NCBI GenBank assembly: GCA_029262875.1
Contig: JAJCYO010000163.1
Location: 1-45,065 of the forward strand
DNA: 45,065 nucleotides
Direction of reading: 5' to 3'
DNA from: Flavobacteriales bacterium
Lineage (GTDB): Bacteria > Bacteroidota > Bacteroidia > Flavobacteriales_E > Vicingaceae
A program made the position numbers and the translations under genes. Below the pieces are notes generated by a model that saw only the letters and a program-made list of their open reading frames with translations, had not been told where the DNA came from and made no database searches. Positions 14,230 through 22,139 of the stretch are shown one piece after another; within the stretch, counting starts at the first letter, position 1, and every line of letters begins with the position of its first letter.

Positions 14230-15240
14230 CTAAAGATTAGTTACAAGTTGTCTTGTTTGATGTATTTGTTGATACAGCTTTTCAGCCTGTTGATAATATA
14301 GTGTTTGTTGTCCATCAGAAAACGCGATTTCCGGGTTTTCATGTGTTTCGATGATAATTCCATCTGCTCCACACATTACTCCTGCTAAAGCCATAGTAGC
14401 AACATGTTGTCGTAATCCAATTCCATGTGAAGGATCGACAATAACAGGTAAATGAGACTTTTCCTTTAAAATAGGAATAGCATTTAAATCTAATGTGTTG
14501 CGGTACGCTTTTTCATATGTTCGAATACCTCTTTCACATAATAGTATTTTTTCATTTCCGTTAGAAAAAACATATTCTGCTGAGGCCAATAACTCTTCTA
14601 TTGTTCCTGACATGCCACGTTTTATCATTACGGGTTTGTCTACTTTTCCTAATATATCTAATAGGTTAAAGTTTTGAGAGTTTCGTGCTCCAACTTGAAA
14701 AATGTCAACATAGTCTACCATTTCTTCTACTTGTGAGACTTGCATGACTTCAGTAATTACTTTAATCCCATTTTCTGAACAGTGTTTGTAAAATAATTTC
14801 AGGCCTTCCATTCCCATTCCACGAAAAGCATAAGGAGAACTGCGGGGTTTGTAAACTCCGCCACGCATTATTTTGATGTTATTTTTCAGTAAATGTTGAA
14901 CAGTATTTTCAATTTGCTCTTCTCCCTCAATAGAACAAGGTCCAGCCATAATTGCCAATTCATTTCCTCCAATGGTAACATCATCACCTAAATCAATTAT
15001 AGTCTCATTCACTTTCCATTTTTTTGAAACCAATTTATAATCATCTGAAACACGGTGAATGTCTTCAATACCATTTAGATTCCCAATGTTTCTTAGATCA
15101 AAATCTACTTTAGGTATTCCAACAATGTAGTTTTTAAATTGTGTTGAAATAAGGTTTGATTTAATGTTTAAATCGGATAGCTTATTGATTAACACTTCTT
15201 TTTCAGAAGAAGTAATGTTATCTGATAGTTGAATAATCAT
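14230..15240 (-). CDS. aroF: 3-deoxy-7-phosphoheptulonate (DAHP) synthase
   Basis: The 336-residue enzyme joins phosphoenolpyruvate and erythrose 4-phosphate in the first step of the shikimate pathway. An N-terminal ferredoxin-like/ACT-like regulatory domain (about 1-75) precedes a catalytic barrel of the short type I-beta (AroA-beta) family: AGPCSIEGEEQI (from 99), RGGVYKPRSSPYAFRGMG (126-143), QVGARNSQNF, KRGMSGTIEELL, and IVDPSHGIGLR. Domain order is like the Thermotoga enzyme, where the N-terminal domain gives feedback inhibition. Its start overlaps the trpA stop by four bases, so it belongs to the trp operon and the attenuator upstream of trpE should also control entry into the pathway. 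Confidence 0.93.
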   Translation of the reverse strand: MIIQLSDNITSSEKEVLINKLSDLNIKSNLISTQFKNYIVGIPKVDFDLRNIGNLNGIEDIHRVSDDYKLVSKKWKVNETIIDLGDDVTIGGNELAIMAGPCSIEGEEQIENTVQHLLKNNIKIMRGGVYKPRSSPYAFRGMGMEGLKLFYKHCSENGIKVITEVMQVSQVEEMVDYVDIFQVGARNSQNFNLLDILGKVDKPVMIKRGMSGTIEELLASAEYVFSNGNEKILLCERGIRTYEKAYRNTLDLNAIPILKEKSHLPVIVDPSHGIGLRQHVATMALAGVMCGADGIIIETHENPEIAFSDGQQTLYYQQAEKLYQQIHQTRQLVTNL

Positions 15241-16004
15241 AATATTGATTTTACAAATTCGTTTACTGTTGTTTTTGTATTGTTATTGTTCTCCAAAGCT
15301 TTTATAAAAGCACTTCCTATTATTGCTCCTTCTGCATTTTTACAGGCAGTGTTAAAAGTTTTTTGATTTGAAATTCCAAAGCCAATGAGCTTTGGGTTGC
15401 TAAGGTTAAGCTCATTTATTCGCTCGAAATAATCCAGTTGATTTTGTTCGATATCATTTTTAGAACCTGTAGTTGCATAGGAAGAAACAACATACAAGAA
15501 ACCTGAACTTTCAGCATCAATCAACCTTATTCTTTTATCTGTTGTTTGCGGAGTGATTAAGAAAATCATGTCCAATTCTAAATTCTGAATAACTGTTTTG
15601 TAATCACTCTGATAGATTTCCAGTGGTAAATCTGGGATAATAAAACCATCAACTCCCACAGTTTTTGCCTTTTCGAAAAAGGCAGTAGTACCATATTGTA
15701 ATACTTGGTTATAATACCCCATCAATACAATTGGAACTGAAACAGTTTTTCTAATTTCCTCAATTTGTTCAAATATTATTTCGAGTGTAATGCCATTTTT
15801 AATAGCAATATGACTACTATTTTGAATAGTAGGGCCATCAGCTAAGGGATCAGAAAAGGGCATTCCAATTTCGACCATATCTACACCACTGTTGGCTAAT
15901 TCTTGAATAATTTCAATGGTATCGTTTAGGTTTGGAAACCCTGCAGTAACATAGATGTTAAGGATGTCCTTTTTTTCTTTAAACAGTTGTTCTATTCTAT
16001 TCAT
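15237..16004 (-). CDS. trpA: Tryptophan synthase alpha subunit
   Basis: The start is set at 16004 ([20 protein letters not shown]), giving 255 residues; a longer in-frame ORF extends 13 codons into trpB but adds sequence unlike the family. The alpha subunit cleaves indole-3-glycerol phosphate to indole and glyceraldehyde 3-phosphate. Catalytic residues are Glu45 and Asp56 in [19 protein letters not shown], matching Glu49/Asp60 of the enteric enzyme; the phosphate-binding GFGIS and the final IIGSAFI strand are present. The ATG overlaps the trpB stop (ATGAATAG arrangement), as expected for translational coupling of the two subunits. Confidence 0.96.
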
Positions 16005-17181
16005 CGTCCATCTTTTTAATATATGTTTCCATATCCTTATCACCTCTTCCTGAAAGATTTATTACCACATTTTCATTTGGATTGAAATCAATTTTAGTTA
16101 ATGCTGCTAATGCGTGGGCTGATTCTAACGCGGGAATAATTCCCTCAAGCTTAGTTAATTCATAAGCTGCGGTTAGTGCTTCTTTGTCAGTTGCACCAAT
16201 AAAAGTTCCTCGTCCAGTTTTAAATAAATGAGCATGTAAAGGACCAACTCCAGGATAATCCAACCCAGCAGAAATTGAATGTGGTTCTGTTATTTGTCCC
16301 TCACTATTTTGCATTAATAGGGTCTTACTTCCATGGATAATTCCTTCTGTTCCAACTTGAGTCGTTGCAGCAGTTTTATCTGTTTCAACACCCAAACCAT
16401 CAGCTTCAACAGCAATTAGTTCCACTTTTTCATTATCTAAGTAATGATAAAAAGCACCTGCAGCATTACTTCCACCACCAACGCAAGCAATAATTTTATC
16501 GGGATGATCTTTTCCTGTTTTCTCTTGCAATTGGTTTTTCATTTCTTCACTGATAATGGATTGAAATCGAGCCACCATGTCAGGGTAAGGGTGAGGCCCA
16601 ACTACTGAACCTATTAAATAATAGGTATCTACAGGATTTGCAATCCAATCGCGAATGGCCTCATTGGTAGCATCTTTAAGGGTTTTACTTCCTGATGTTG
16701 CTGAACGAACTTCAGCCCCTAACATTTTCATTCGGGCAACATTTGGTGCTTGTCTTTTAATGTCTACTTCACCCATATAAACAAGACATTCTAATCCCAT
16801 TAAAGCGCAGACTGTTGCTGTTGCAACCCCATGTTGACCAGCACCTGTTTCGGCAATAATTCGTTTTTTGTTCATCCGTTGGGCCAATAAAATTTGGCCA
16901 ATGGTATTGTTTATTTTATGTGCTCCTGTATGATTTAGGTCTTCTCTCTTTAAGAAGATGTTTGTATTATATTTTTTAGACAATCGTTTTGCGAAATAGA
17001 GTGGAGTTGGCCTACCAACATACTCTTTTAACAGGTCTTTAAATTCCTCTTGAAAACTATCTGACTCAATAATTTGTAAATAATTTTCTTTCAATTCATT
17101 TACATTATGGTAAAGCATTTCAGGAATAAATGCTCCTCCAAAATCTCCATAAAACCCTTGTTCGTTAACCTTGTAATTCAT
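15997..17181 (-). CDS. trpB: Tryptophan synthase beta subunit
   Basis: The 394-residue PLP enzyme condenses indole with serine to give tryptophan. The PLP lysine is Lys89 in [14 protein letters not shown], the catalytic Glu111 is in [11 protein letters not shown], and the cofactor phosphate loop GGGSNAAG and C-terminal LSGRGDKDM are present. It belongs to the standard TrpB1 type (length and Gly-rich COMM-like region [15 protein letters not shown]), which pairs with TrpA. It overlaps trpF upstream by 17 bases and trpA downstream by 8 bases. Confidence 0.97.
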
Positions 17182-17779
17182 CGGAAAATAGTTTTATTTT
17201 TTGTATGTTTTTTAATCCAGGCTCAATTTCAAACCCACTGTTGATGTCTACTCCAGCAAATTGCGGATGTTCCATATCTTTAATTTGTTTAACCATTGTT
17301 TCATCGATTCCGCCACTTAATAAAAAAGGAACTTGACCACTATAGTTTTCAATCAATTTCCAATTGAATGTAATTCCATTTCCACCAGCGTTTTTCCCAA
17401 AAGCATCAAATAAAAAGTAATCACAAAAAGCTTCATAGGCTTGCAATTGTTTAAAATCAAAATTCTCAGAGATGTTAAATGCTTTAATGATTTTGTATTT
17501 TTTTTGCCTCATTTCTTGACAAAAACTTGGTGTTTCGTTTCCGTGTAGTTGGATGTAATCTAATTTGAATTCAACTGATTTTTTAGCAATAAAGTCTTCT
17601 TTTTGATTAACAAAGACACCTGCTTTATATATTGTTTCTGGAATTTTCACATCAGGAAATGTCGTTACATTTCTCGGTGAATTTTCATGAAAAATGAAGC
17701 CAATAAAGTTGGGTTGAACTTTTATAAGCTCAAGAATATTGTTGCTATTTCTCATTCCACAGACCTTAAGCTTCAACAT
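17165..17779 (-). CDS. trpF: Phosphoribosylanthranilate isomerase
   Basis: The 204-residue beta-barrel enzyme performs the Amadori rearrangement of phosphoribosylanthranilate. The catalytic Cys7 lies in KVCGMRN; other family blocks are [52 protein letters not shown] and GVDINSGFE, the last carrying the catalytic Asp. Length is normal for a free-standing TrpF, so trpC and trpF are separate genes here rather than fused as in enteric bacteria. It overlaps trpC upstream by 14 bases and trpB downstream by 17. Confidence 0.95.
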
Positions 17780-18569
17780 TGGTGTTTTGATTTAATTGTT
17801 CAATGAACTTTTTACACTCTAACTCTGGAGAAGCTGTTTTCATAAAATTTTCACCTATCAAGAATCCGTCAAAATCGTGTTGTTTTAATTCAATGATATT
17901 TTTATAATCGCTAATTCCACTCTCTGCAATTTTTACTGTTCCTGTTGGGAGCTGCTGAGCTAAACGAATGGAGTTTTCAAAATCAACATCAAATGTTTTT
18001 AGATTACGATTGTTGATGCCAACCAAACTAATTTCTGGTATGTACTTTTCAAGCTCTTCTTGCGTGTGAACTTCTAACAGCACTTCTAACCCTAATTGTT
18101 GAGCTAAAGCGGTAAATTGTTTGATTTCGTCTTTACTCAAAACGGAAGCAATCAATAGAATGGCATCTGCACCAATTGATTTTGCTTCCATAATTTGGTA
18201 TTCAGATACGGTAAAATCTTTTCTTAGTATAGGACAGAAATTGAACTTTCTTGCTGTTGTTAGGTCTTCAGTTGTTCCGCCAAAAAAGTGAGTGTCTGTT
18301 AAAACCGATAAGGCAGAAGCTCCTGCTTGCATATAGCCAATTGATGTTTTTTCTACATTGGCAAATTCATTAATCATTCCTTTTGAAGGGGATTTTCGTT
18401 TGAATTCAGCTATAATTCCACTTTTATCTTCTCGTTTAATATAGTGTTTTAAGGAAACACATTCCGATTGAAAGTAAAGGCTTTGTTCCAATAGTTTTAT
18501 TGGGTGCGTTGCTATTCTTTCTGCTACTTCTTTTCTTTTGTAAGCTATTATTTCGTCTAAGATTGTCAT
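17766..18569 (-). CDS. trpC: Indole-3-glycerol-phosphate synthase
   Basis: The 267-residue barrel enzyme converts carboxyphenylamino-deoxyribulose phosphate to indole-3-glycerol phosphate. Family blocks include AEFKRKSPSKG (54-64), LTDTHFFGGT, PILRKDFTVSEYQI with the catalytic lysine, LEVLLEVHTQEEL, VGINNRNLKTF, and AESGI near the end. It is followed with overlap by trpF and preceded, after a 45-base gap, by the four-helix-bundle gene rather than directly by trpD. Confidence 0.96.
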   Translation of the reverse strand: MTILDEIIAYKRKEVAERIATHPIKLLEQSLYFQSECVSLKHYIKREDKSGIIAEFKRKSPSKGMINEFANVEKTSIGYMQAGASALSVLTDTHFFGGTTEDLTTARKFNFCPILRKDFTVSEYQIMEAKSIGADAILLIASVLSKDEIKQFTALAQQLGLEVLLEVHTQEELEKYIPEISLVGINNRNLKTFDVDFENSIRLAQQLPTGTVKIAESGISDYKNIIELKQHDFDGFLIGENFMKTASPELECKKFIEQLNQNTNVEA

Positions 18570-18614
18570 TCTTCTAATGATTTAATGTTGTAATAGGTAA
18601 ATGTTACAATGTTC

Positions 18615-18986
18615 TTATTTGTTACCATAACTTGAGTTTTTTGCTTTTGACATTACTTTGTTTAATTCATTTGCTTCTATCAAAAGTCTTTCTAATTCTT
18701 CATTATCATTTGATAAGTCAGCATCTTTAATTACTTCTAACCAATATTCTGATTCGTCAACTTCTTCTACAACAATACATATTTTACTAAAAAATTCATT
18801 CTTAGACCTTGCCTTGCAAGTAGCTCGATAATTTGCTCCTGTTGATGTTGCCGATTTAACCAATTGATAAGTAATAACAGATGATGTTTTACACGTTTTC
18901 AAAGAATCACAAAATCGGATTACATCTACTGCAAACTTTTTGGTTCGCTTTTTCATTTTCTCTATGAATAGTTCTTTATCAGTCAT
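18615..18986 (-). CDS. Four-helix-bundle (23S rRNA IVS-like) protein inside the trp operon
   Basis: The 123-residue protein matches the small four-helix-bundle family first known from intervening sequences of 23S rRNA genes: RTKKFAVDVIRFCDSL, VITYQLVKSATSTGANYRA, CKARSKNEFFSKICIVVEEV and DESEYWLEVIKDADL. The homopentameric relatives are thought to bind nucleic acid, but their role is unknown. It has no part in tryptophan synthesis, yet lies on the same strand between trpD (20-base gap) and trpC (45-base gap), so it must be co-transcribed with the operon. In Bacteroidota such genes are often found singly in unrelated places, which suggests insertion. Confidence 0.85.
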   Translation of the reverse strand: MTDKELFIEKMKKRTKKFAVDVIRFCDSLKTCKTSSVITYQLVKSATSTGANYRATCKARSKNEFFSKICIVVEEVDESEYWLEVIKDADLSNDNEELERLLIEANELNKVMSKAKNSSYGNK

Positions 18987-19006
18987 TATATTTAATCATT
19001 TCAACA

Positions 19007-19993
19007 TTAACGCATTATTTTTTTCAAGCACTCATAAGCATTTCCAGCATCTAAAGATTCTCTGGCTATTGCCACACATTCAGCTAAAGATTTATTAGGC
19101 TCAAAACATTGAATGGCAAATGAAGAGTTGGCTAATACCACATTTTTTTGTGCATTAGTACAATCATTATTTAATACATCAATAAATATTTTTGATGCTT
19201 CTTTAATCGTTTCTCCACCAAATATGTCCTCTTGTTTTTGTGTTTTAAAACCAATTGATTCTGGATCCAACAATGTTTCTCCTTGATTAGAAATGGCTTT
19301 GAATTTTCCAGTCAAAGAAATTTCATCATAACCATCTAAACTGTGTAAAATGGTATAGTTTTTACCTGATTGTTGTAATAAATAATTATAAATGCGAGCA
19401 ATTTCTAAATTGAAAACACCTACCAATTGGTTTTGAGGAAAGCTCGGGTTTACCAAAGGACCAAGCATATTAAAAAAAGTTTTAATCCCTAATTCTTTTC
19501 GTATTGGGCCAACATTTTTCATAGCGGGATGAAATAGTGGAGCGTGCATCATGCAAAAATTAGCCTTATCAATTTGTTGTTTTAATGTAGATTCATCATT
19601 TGTAAATTGATACCCTAAATGTTCCAACACATTAGATGAACCACAAGAAGAGGATACGCCATAATTTCCATGTTTAGCAACCTTGTATCCCGCTCCAGCA
19701 ATTACAAAAGCAGAAAGTGTAGAAATGTTAAAGGTATTTTTGCCATCTCCACCAGTTCCACAAACATCAACGGTGTTAAAATCAGATAAATCTACTTTTA
19801 AGCACAGGTCTAATAATGCATTTCTGAAGCCCGTAAGTTCTTCTACAGAGATATTTCTCATTAAATAAACCGTTAAAAAGGCAGCTATTTGTGAATGATT
19901 GAAATCTCCTTTACCGATCCGAGTTAGAATAGTATAAGCATCCTGTTCTGATAATGTTTGGTGTTCAAATAATTTATTAAGGGTGGCCTTCAT
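19007..19993 (-). CDS. trpD: Anthranilate phosphoribosyltransferase
   Basis: The 328-residue enzyme transfers phosphoribose from PRPP to anthranilate. The PRPP loop CGTGGDGKNTFNIS (78-91) is intact, as are KHGNYGVSSSCGSSNVLE, FMNA-type FCMMHAPLFHPAMKNVGPIRKELG and FFNMLGPLVNP. It is a stand-alone TrpD, not fused to TrpG. One base separates its ATG from the trpG stop, and the four-helix-bundle gene follows. Confidence 0.96.
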   Translation of the reverse strand: MKATLNKLFEHQTLSEQDAYTILTRIGKGDFNHSQIAAFLTVYLMRNISVEELTGFRNALLDLCLKVDLSDFNTVDVCGTGGDGKNTFNISTLSAFVIAGAGYKVAKHGNYGVSSSCGSSNVLEHLGYQFTNDESTLKQQIDKANFCMMHAPLFHPAMKNVGPIRKELGIKTFFNMLGPLVNPSFPQNQLVGVFNLEIARIYNYLLQQSGKNYTILHSLDGYDEISLTGKFKAISNQGETLLDPESIGFKTQKQEDIFGGETIKEASKIFIDVLNNDCTNAQKNVVLANSSFAIQCFEPNKSLAECVAIARESLDAGNAYECLKKIMR

Positions 19994-19994
19994 T

Positions 19995-20567
19995 TTAAAT
20001 GGATAAAAAGTTATTAATCATTTCTTTACCATGCTCTGTTAAAATAGATTCTGGATGAAATTGTACTCCGTACACATTATAGTCTTTATGTTTAAGAGAC
20101 ATGATTTGCCCGTTTTCTTCTACAGAAGTAATTTTTAATACATCGGGAAACCCATTATTATCTATTACCCAGCTGTGGTATCTGCCAATGTTGAAAGAGT
20201 TTGGTAAGTTCTTAAATAACAGGTCATTTTCATCTAAAACTTCAATGGGTGTTGCTACTCCATGGAAAACATTGTTTAGGTTTATTAATGTTCCACCAAA
20301 AACTTCTCCCATAGCTTGCATCCCTAAACAAACTCCTAAAATCTTTTTTGTTGATGCATATTTTTTGATTACCTCGTTCAAAATTCCCGCATCTTTTGGC
20401 AACCCAGGACCAGGAGATAGAATAATGGTATTGTATTGATCAACTTCTTCCAACGTAATTTCATCGTTACGAAAGACGTCTACTTTAAAATTTGGATTTG
20501 CCTCGACATAATGAACCAAATTATAGGTGAACGAATCATAATTGTCTAATACTAATATCTTTTCCAT
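19995..20567 (-). CDS. trpG: Anthranilate synthase component II (glutamine amidotransferase)
   Basis: The 190-residue class I glutamine amidotransferase supplies ammonia to TrpE. The triad is visible: Cys80 in LGVCLGMQAMGEVFGG, and His171 with Glu173 in QFHPESILTEHG; the SPGPGLPKDAG oxyanion loop is at 51-61. Such subunits can be shared with para-aminobenzoate synthase (PabA); the place between trpE and trpD argues for the tryptophan role first. It begins three bases after the trpE stop. Confidence 0.94.
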   Translation of the reverse strand: MEKILVLDNYDSFTYNLVHYVEANPNFKVDVFRNDEITLEEVDQYNTIILSPGPGLPKDAGILNEVIKKYASTKKILGVCLGMQAMGEVFGGTLINLNNVFHGVATPIEVLDENDLLFKNLPNSFNIGRYHSWVIDNNGFPDVLKITSVEENGQIMSLKHKDYNVYGVQFHPESILTEHGKEMINNFLSI

Positions 20568-20570
20568 AGC

Positions 20571-21965
20571 TTAAATATTTTCTGCTAATGTTAATGCTTG
20601 CTTCAATGCTCCAAGCTTATTGTTTACTTCTTGTAATTCATTTTCTTCATTAGAATCAACAACAATCCCCGCACCTGCTTGAAAGAACAAGGTATTGTTT
20701 TTACTCAAAAAACTTCTAATGGTAATGGCATGATTTATAGCGCCATCAAATTCAAAAACACCAATTGCTCCACCATAAAATCCTCTGTTTTGATTTTCAT
20801 ACTGATCAATTAATTGCATCGCTTTATATTTTGGTGCACCCGATAAAGTTCCTGCTGGAAAGGTGTCTGCAAAAATTTGTAATGCATCGGAAGATGAGTT
20901 CAATTCAGCCTCAACTTCAGAAACCAAATGAATGACATGACTATAAAACTGTGTTTCTTTATAGGTTTTAACCGTTACCTGTTGTCCATGCCTGCTTAAA
21001 TCGTTCCGTGCTAAATCCACTAACATAGTGTGTTCAGCGTTTTCTTTCGGATCTTTTGCTAATTGTTCTGCTAATTCTTGATCTTGTATGTCATTTCCGG
21101 TTCGTTTAAAAGTTCCGGCTATAGGGTTTATTGTTGCTTTTCCATTGCTTGCTTTCAGTTGTGCTTCAGGAGAAGAACCAAAAAGTTTATAATCTCCAAA
21201 ATCAAAATAAAACAAATAAGGGGAAGGGTTTACAGATCGTAAAGCACGGTATACATTAAATTCATCTCCGCTAAATTGTTGCGAAAATTGACGAGAAAGT
21301 ACCAATTGAAAAACATCTCCTTTTTGGCAATGTTCTTTTCCGGTAGTAACTAAATTCTTGAAGCCAGTATCAGAAATGTTGGTGTCTTCTGTTCCTTCTT
21401 TTTTGAAATGATAACGAGGGTGATTATTGCTACTAACTAAGCCTATAATTTCTGTTATGTTTGATTCCTGATTATCAATTAAGTTTTCGGTTATTGTCAG
21501 TTCATTTTTAAAATGATCTATTTGGATAATGTATTTAAAAAGCGAATAATGCATTTCGGGGGTTGAGTACCGTTCTTTTTTTGGAGCATCGATATTCAAT
21601 GTTTCAAAGTACTTTACGGCATCATAATTAGTGTATCCAAAGAACCCATTTACCTTATTATTCTCTTTGATGTTGAATGAACCAATTAATTTTTGCAATT
21701 CATCAATGACTTGTTCCCTTTTGTTAATCTCGATTATTTTGTCTAATCCTAATCCTTTGATATTAATGGACTCATTTTCAACAATGAAAGAAACCAAAGG
21801 GTCCAAACAGATAAACGAAAAGTTATTATCGTTGCCATGATAATCCGAACTTTCTAATAAAAAAGAGTTGTGAAATTTATCACGGAGTTTTAAATACAAT
21901 CCAACAGGAGTAACTGTGTCTGAAAGTATTTTTTCTGTTTGGGGTATTATATTTATTTTATTCAT
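20571..21965 (-). CDS. trpE: Anthranilate synthase component I
   Basis: The 464-residue chorismate-utilising enzyme makes anthranilate with TrpG. Motifs include FGSSPEAQLKA, NPIAGTFKRTG, LVDLARNDLSRHG and FPAGTLSGAPKYKAMQLI, and the C-terminal QAGAGIVVDS. The LLESS segment (36-40) corresponds to the tryptophan-binding feedback site of TrpE, which favours TrpE over PabB. It is the first enzyme gene of the operon; the leader peptide and terminator at 21983-22114 lie directly upstream. Confidence 0.95.
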   Translation of the reverse strand: MNKINIIPQTEKILSDTVTPVGLYLKLRDKFHNSFLLESSDYHGNDNNFSFICLDPLVSFIVENESINIKGLGLDKIIEINKREQVIDELQKLIGSFNIKENNKVNGFFGYTNYDAVKYFETLNIDAPKKERYSTPEMHYSLFKYIIQIDHFKNELTITENLIDNQESNITEIIGLVSSNNHPRYHFKKEGTEDTNISDTGFKNLVTTGKEHCQKGDVFQLVLSRQFSQQFSGDEFNVYRALRSVNPSPYLFYFDFGDYKLFGSSPEAQLKASNGKATINPIAGTFKRTGNDIQDQELAEQLAKDPKENAEHTMLVDLARNDLSRHGQQVTVKTYKETQFYSHVIHLVSEVEAELNSSSDALQIFADTFPAGTLSGAPKYKAMQLIDQYENQNRGFYGGAIGVFEFDGAINHAITIRSFLSKNNTLFFQAGAGIVVDSNEENELQEVNNKLGALKQALTLAENI

Positions 21966-21982: not shown

Positions 21983-22014
21983 AAAAAAAGGCTTGTCGTA
22001 ATCGACAAGCCTTT
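21983..22014 (-). terminator. trp attenuator terminator hairpin
   Basis: On the minus strand a perfect 12-bp stem, AAAGGCTTGTCG and CGACAAGCCTTT, closes an ATTA loop and runs into seven T residues, ending 18 bases before the trpE ATG. Since it stands before the first structural gene, it should end transcription early unless an alternative fold forms (see the leader peptide entry). Confidence 0.93.
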
Positions 22015-22049
22015 AAAGTATTTTATATACAGAGGTTTAGATTACGTTT

Positions 22050-22097
22050 TCAGTTTAAACGAATCCACCACCAATTTGTATTTTTTATCAATTTCAT
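22050..22097 (-). CDS. trpL: trp leader peptide with three consecutive Trp codons
   Basis: A 15-codon ORF reads MKLIKNTNWWWIRLN and stops with TGA at 22050. Codons 9-11 (22065-22073) are three TGG in a row. The RNA downstream can fold in exclusive ways. Region 1 (22057-22069, over the last two Trp codons and the next ones) pairs with region 2 (22034-22049): GGAUUCGUUU with AAACGUAAUCU, one bulged U, extended by GGU with ACC. Region 2 (CGUAAUC, 22040-22046) also pairs with GAUUACG (21997-22003) in the loop and stem of the terminator, helped by CCU/AGG. A ribosome stalled at the Trp codons would mask region 1, free region 2 and disturb the terminator. This is the classical leader-peptide attenuation design; the antiterminator pairing is the weakest part, at about seven continuous base pairs. 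Confidence 0.92.
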   Translation of the reverse strand: MKLIKNTNWWWIRLN

Positions 22098-22106
22098 AAT
22101 CAAAGA

Positions 22107-22139
22107 CAAAGATATGAGAAAAAAAATAAGAAATGCAAA
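22107..22139 (-). promoter_or_regulatory. trp operon promoter
   Basis: On the minus strand TATCTTTG (22107-22114) matches the -7 consensus TAnnTTTG, and TTTG (22136-22139) stands 21 bases upstream in the place of the -33 element. Transcription would start near 22100-22102, only a few bases before the leader ATG at 22097, so trpL is probably translated from an almost leaderless mRNA. Confidence 0.7.

Follow-up and report, generated by a model that had tools for sequence, protein, structure and literature searches.

A predicted ribosome-mediated trp attenuator with a near-leaderless leader ORF in a Flavobacteriales genome, and its counterparts upstream of trpE in Bacteroidia

The element that lies directly ahead of trpE in the marine Flavobacteriales bacterium studied here very probably controls the trp operon as a ribosome-mediated transcription attenuator. 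Within the window, by which we mean the whole 45,065-nucleotide stretch of DNA that was analysed, a short ORF with clustered Trp codons precedes the trp genes, an intrinsic terminator lies between this leader and the first gene, and a complete trp operon, recognized by Pfam, follows downstream. The source is a 3.94-Mb draft genome of 173 contigs; the closest relatives that bear a name are MAGs of Flavobacteriales, one from a Vicingaceae bacterium and one labelled Vicingus serpentipes among them. The first-pass annotation had placed a trp attenuator in front of trpE, a proposal that is now backed by the gene context, by the geometry and folding of the leader and by comparison with relatives, and the coordinates and parts that it reported (a 15-codon ORF, three TGG codons, hairpins, a 12-bp terminator, a T run and a TAnnTTTG promoter) are confirmed in the sequence. 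Judged from its sequence, the switch is confirmed as one of a kind already catalogued in this phylum, an ordinary and well-formed trp attenuator; its interest lies in a widespread near-leaderless start, a loop-directed antiterminator and the existence of a tandem form. The features of the locus, all on the minus strand, are as follows.

22136-22139, minus strand: -33-like TTTG, 21 nt ahead of the -7 box (read in the sequence)
22107-22114, minus strand: -7 box TATCTTTG, consensus TAnnTTTG (sequence; consensus from PMC9723704)
22101-22103, minus strand: predicted transcription start (from the -7-to-start spacing of PMC6847099 and PMC9723704)
22050-22097, minus strand: leader ORF MKLIKNTNWWWIRLN, 15 codons plus stop, with TGA at 22052-22050 (sequence)
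22065-22073, minus strand: three consecutive TGG codons, the putative sensing site (sequence)
22034-22072, minus strand: protector hairpin (region 1:2), spanning the Trp codons and the stop codon (folding)
22033-22046, minus strand: region 2, made up of CGUAAUC (22046-22040), UAA and CCU (folding)
21997-22012, minus strand: region 3, the terminator upper 5′ arm, loop and CG, antiterminator partner of region 2 (folding)
21983-22014, minus strand: intrinsic terminator with a 12-bp stem, AUUA loop and T tract (sequence and folding)
20571-21965, minus strand: trpE, first gene of the operon (Pfam PF00425 and PF04715)
14230-20567, minus strand: trpG, trpD, a PF05635 ORF, trpC, trpF, trpB, trpA and DAHP synthase (gene names from Pfam)

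Nine nucleotides separate TATCTTTG from the ATG (22097-22095), and relatives such as L042 show the same TTTG-N21-TAnnTTTG layout. The terminator stem-loop is AAAGGCTTGTCG-ATTA-CGACAAGCCTTT (22014-21987), with the T tract at 21989-21983. When the 134-nt leader (21983-22116) was folded, it reached -34.3 kcal/mol (z -5.4), and none of 200 shuffles was as good. The sequence TGGTGGTGG is present in two copies in the window against 0.17 expected, the second copy lying inside the trpB ORF. Elsewhere in the operon, the ORF of PF05635 (23S rRNA intervening-sequence protein; 18615-18986) is inserted between trpD and trpC. Five loci of the same genus (L039, L040, L042, L043 and L046) carry, between the terminator and trpE, a hairpin-like element followed by TGATAATTAT, which the window lacks.

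From the sequence parts, their conservation and the predicted folds, we infer the following course of events in the cell, from start site and translation to stalling and termination. Transcription would begin about 5 nt ahead of the leader AUG, and a ribosome, unaided by a Shine-Dalgarno sequence, would initiate close to the 5′ end of the RNA. With charged tRNA-Trp in ample supply, this ribosome would reach the UGA at 22052 and its leading edge would cover region 2 (22046-22040), allowing the terminator (22014-21987) to form and transcription to stop before trpE. When charged tRNA-Trp is scarce, the ribosome would instead stall at 22073-22065, covering region 1 and leaving region 2 free to pair with the terminator loop and upper 5′ arm, and RNA polymerase would continue into the trp genes. 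If no ribosome were present, the 1:2 hairpin would hold region 2 and termination would result by default. Region 2 starts 4 nt and ends 10 nt past the stop codon, so that, given the size of the ribosome footprint, region 2 would be covered by a ribosome at the stop codon but left exposed by a ribosome at the Trp codons.

The core of the antiterminator is a 7-bp CGUAAUC:GAUUACG pairing, in which GAUUACG comprises the terminator loop, the closing pair and one further base, and the pairing continues past these 7 bp with UAA/UUG and then CCU/AGG. The seven-base-pair alternative pairing and the extra CCU/AGG pairs are thus present as first described, and the accompanying concern about the weakness of this pairing stands: the antiterminator of the window amounts to -9.6 kcal/mol versus -18.2 kcal/mol for the terminator and, because it is the weaker of the two, read-through must be kinetic and dependent on a stalled ribosome. 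The antiterminator was not formed by a window stretch ending at 22001, in mid-loop, i.e. it does not nucleate before the loop is transcribed. In predicted folds of 15 leaders from the window's family, all 15 formed the antiterminator when the Trp codons were covered and the terminator 3′ arm had just begun, with energies of -7.4 to -13.4 kcal/mol for the antiterminator versus -14.6 to -19.1 kcal/mol for the terminator. We also considered a pseudoknot in which the region 2:loop pairing coexists with the terminator; UAA/UUG and CCU/AGG make use of the terminator 5′ arm, so that antiterminator and terminator would be exclusive. In its predicted folds, then, the leader possesses an antiterminator which excludes the terminator and which a ribosome stalled on the Trp codons would release.

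Across the class, the pairing of region 2 with the terminator half of its own unit was compared with that of shuffled region 2 in 117 units, giving a mean z of -2.4, with z below -2 in 71 units and above 0 in 6, and in 91 of the 117 region 2 forms three or more pairs with the loop or with the opening bases of the 3′ arm. A cross-family test, blunted by the fact that families often share loop words, placed the cognate hairpin among the top 5% for 26 of the 71 units from the class sample and did the same with the cognate region 2 for 21 of the 71; it was weaker for the region 1:2 pairing (12 of 71). When conservation in relatives was checked, as the first-pass annotation had proposed, the ORF, Trp codons and hairpins were found in 15 of 15 aligned family leaders, each of which has clustered Trp codons, protector, antiterminator and terminator. 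The alignment of these 15 sequences (A1), which shows visible shifts of the L019 terminator and of the 5′ ends of L046, L049 and L052, has 89.9% of its protector cells paired; pairs in which both partners have changed number 3 of 14 in the protector, 3 of 12 in the terminator and 2 of 13 in the antiterminator. The alignment therefore suggests modest covariation for the protector and the terminator. For the antiterminator, the CCU/AGG part of which is paired in only 67% of cells, covariation is weak, since 30 of 500 shuffles reach its score. The compensatory changes anticipated in regions 1-3 were seen modestly for the protector and weakly for the antiterminator.

Our survey of the class Bacteroidia covered 146 trpE-anchored regions (53 from a 57-locus set, 5 from the window's family including the window itself, and 88 from a class sample), a unit being defined as a terminator preceded by a Trp-rich ORF of 7-45 codons. 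Left out were L051, L053, L080 and L095 of the 57-locus set, where the match lies at the locus edge without upstream DNA, G100 (at a contig start) and G301 of the 92 class-sample places, loci repeating named ones, and non-trpE or truncated loci (L010-L018, L023-L038). A leader with terminator was detected in 117 of the 146 upstream regions and in 0 of 146 on the opposite strand, while five dinucleotide shuffles gave 1, 0, 0, 3 and 0 units per 146; at least one unit was detected in 23 of the 32 families represented by loci with family labels, all these counts being non-independent because the loci are related by descent. This strand asymmetry bears on the idea of a simple terminator that would shield trpE against antisense transcription or transcription arriving from upstream, with the Trp-rich ORF being incidental. 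The terminator is indeed strong, and 22275 is the start of a divergent gene from the Glu/Leu/Phe/Val dehydrogenase family, but the regular company of a Trp-rich ORF on the coding strand, together with a promoter on that same strand upstream of the terminator, makes such an insulator very improbable.

Among the 29 regions without a detected unit, a relaxed check by eye, with no terminator criterion, revealed a Trp-rich ORF in 15 (11 near trpE and 4 about 1.4 kb upstream), and 9 had no Trp-rich ORF even on this inspection; 5 misses were cut short or partly masked (L021, L044, L061, L098 and L116). In L146, L162, L164 and L174, a long ORF lies between trpE and the Trp-rich leader ORF about 1.4 kb upstream, so that the first gene of the operon probably differs. 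Family f24 lacked a Trp leader upstream of trpE in all 4 sampled loci (L117, L127, L160 and L183), which belong to the 9 regions where inspection showed no Trp-rich ORF. A His leader of the same layout was also sought in the window's genome, where 29 pattern matches were obtained versus 5 in a reversed control; the most leader-like match, L204, was rejected as a candidate, as its stop comes right after HHH and the scan gave no downstream ORF.

No Rfam family, T-box included, scored above its cut-off in the window. At a lax threshold the best match was RF01692, a family named in its Rfam entry as tryptophan peptide leader and located upstream of trp genes in Bacteroidota, with which the window aligns end to end (model positions 1-131 of 131); because its 41.1 bits fall below the gathering cut-off of 49, the window is filed as a homologous sub-threshold leader and not as a certified RF01692 member. 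Orthologues from the same genus lie above the cut-off (51.3, 50 and 49.9 bits). In a stricter-filter search of 100 genomes (the window's own and relatives) at E 0.001, six matched RF01692 and three, each from the genus of the window, passed; the genome of the window itself was not one of the six. The cut-off was passed by 4 of 20 chosen loci, and the RF01692 model thus misses most of what the trpE-anchored search finds; that an element common throughout the class should largely escape the model suggests that RF01692 should be rebuilt. The enteric trpL logic invoked in the first-pass annotation holds as regards attenuation, but it is not only enteric, a Bacteroidota family being known of which the window is a sub-threshold match. 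TRAP- and T-box-type systems control trp genes in Firmicutes, and a leader sensing a protein or a tRNA in that manner, in place of the ribosome, would be a precedent-based alternative; it is extremely unlikely here, given the absence from the window of any above-threshold Rfam family and a conservation that is centred on TGG codons within an ORF.

The 5′ UTR of the window's leader is predicted to be 4-6 nt long. The -7 box of Flavobacterium psychrophilum occupies -12 to -5 (PMC9723704), and promoters of F. johnsoniae were accepted at 4-5 nt between the -7 element and the start (PMC6847099). We counted promoter distances in the 113 leaders with an ATG, omitting the 4 of 117 without one. An exact TAnnTTTG is present within 80 nt upstream in 86 of the 113, and the nearest one ends 4-13 nt before the ATG in 67 of these 86, none being nearer than 4 nt, whereas shuffled upstream DNA yielded a mean of 1.5 and a maximum of 5 leaders at such spacing (200 rounds). 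An abrupt lower bound of 4 nt is consistent with a limit set by the start site: in the 13 of 86 leaders spaced at exactly 4 nt, the A of AUG is predicted to be the first base, i.e. the 5′ UTR would be 0 nt. The count of 67 takes the 5′-most ATG, as was done for control genes; an alternative ATG rule, which is able to favour short distances, gave 69 of 89 at 13 nt or less. Control genes were 104 mechanically called genes with free upstream DNA and uncurated start codons in 290 kb of the window's genome; 26 had an exact site, at 13 nt or less in 8 of the 26, with a median of 33. Exceptions among the leaders are family f54, with 5 of 8 at 17-20 nt, and family f37, with 4 of 5 at 17-33 nt.

A near-leaderless start of the trp leader is therefore predicted to be widespread in the class and not peculiar to the window's locus. 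The nearly leaderless start that had been singled out as unusual compared with Escherichia coli is upheld, as a prediction from promoter spacing. Such a start would differ from that of most genes in these bacteria, for which published figures put short or absent 5′ leaders at only about 4-13%: leaderless mRNAs make up 5.5% overall in F. psychrophilum (PMC9723704), 5′ leaders under 10 nt about 3.7% (PMC7366714), and 87% of 5′ leaders exceed 10 nt (PMC6847099). In the open-access literature searched, we found no dedicated study of leaderless attenuators or of Shine-Dalgarno-free attenuation in Bacteroidota.

In the leader ORF of the window (22097-22050) and in peptides across the class, an Asn-rich NN[NST] directly precedes the Trp codons. 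Among 112 distinct peptides, Asn occupies position -3 in 62, -2 in 51 and -1 in 39, and Lys, present at -7 in 34 and at -2 in 11, appears a single time at -3 and is absent from -1; A-richness alone would not account for such a difference between AAT/AAC and AAA codons. Leaders of Sinorhizobium meliloti and Agrobacterium likewise have Asn before the Trp codons (PMC7298713). Because trans roles have been reported for rnTrpL and peTrpL of S. meliloti, whose leader is leaderless and encodes Asn residues ahead of WWW (PMC7298713), the conserved Asn-rich stretch would also suit a leader RNA and peptide that act mainly in trans, the cis switch being secondary. We consider this unlikely: no target was identified, and the leader keeps its place immediately before trp genes together with its antiterminator and terminator, a constancy that a purely trans role would not need.

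The attenuator also occurs in a doubled form. Upstream of trpE, eight loci carry a pair of Trp leaders that each have a terminator behind them; of these, L055 and L062 are from Prolixibacteraceae, L054 and L056 from Prolixibacter, L059 from Draconibacterium and L081 from Mariniphaga, while L057 and L058 (Bacteroidota/Bacteroidetes) were grouped with the Prolixibacteraceae-like loci by sequence likeness. L022, from another genus of the window's family, is also tandem, its units occupying the stretch from about 310 to 90 nt upstream of the trpE match. L060 (Bacteroidales) has a single unit, and in L061 and L080, of the same kind, the upstream DNA is too short to tell single from tandem. Antiterminator z values of the 18 tandem units range from -0.5 to -4.9, the value for the first ORF of L062 having been computed with the second terminator, with a nearer hairpin visible. 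The peptide pattern of the first tandem unit, one mismatch allowed, was matched in 2 of 395 class genomes, each with one mismatch and probably by chance, so that this peptide form is not widespread in a sample that may hold no Prolixibacteraceae. Tandem attenuators of Salmonella mgtCBR were found in the literature searched, which yielded no tandem trp attenuators.

To our knowledge, Bacteroidota lack Shine-Dalgarno initiation. We tentatively put forward, as a possibility, that in this phylum the (near-)leaderless start is part of the mechanism: initiation at the 5′ end would load the ribosome as the RNA emerges, and so set the ribosome-polymerase timing needed by a late-nucleating, loop-directed antiterminator, and the doubled unit of Prolixibacteraceae-like genomes may represent two attenuators in series that give a wider control range. 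The survey supplies promoter spacings for 113 ATG leaders, together with an explicit model of the antiterminator and the tandem form, all of which are directly testable.

Like the window's leader, Escherichia coli trpL has Trp codons, 1:2, 2:3 and 3:4 pairings and a T tract. The E. coli leader uses Shine-Dalgarno initiation and has a longer 5′ UTR than that predicted for the window, and its antiterminator employs the lower terminator 5′ arm and the preceding bases, not the loop, whereas that of the window would employ the terminator loop and upper 5′ arm. Within the phylum, Weinberg et al. 2010 (PMC2864571) had already listed Bacteroid-trp (RF01692), in passages that are silent on leaderless initiation and on a loop-directed antiterminator. 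Bacteroid-trp is also named before the F. psychrophilum trp operon in a paper on a flavobacterial elastase (PMC6414381), an arrangement like that of the window, and the F. psychrophilum transcriptome offers clues of leader-peptide attenuation ahead of amino-acid operons (PMC9723704); the relevant passages of these two papers do not give the anatomy of the element. S. meliloti is an Alphaproteobacterium and the 5′ end of its leader RNA lies at the ATG itself, whereas about 5 nt are predicted to precede the ATG in the window, but its leaderless trpL/rnTrpL resembles the window's leader, for which a near-leaderless start and transcription attenuation are predicted, in having WWW after Asn residues and in being subject to transcription attenuation (PMC7298713).
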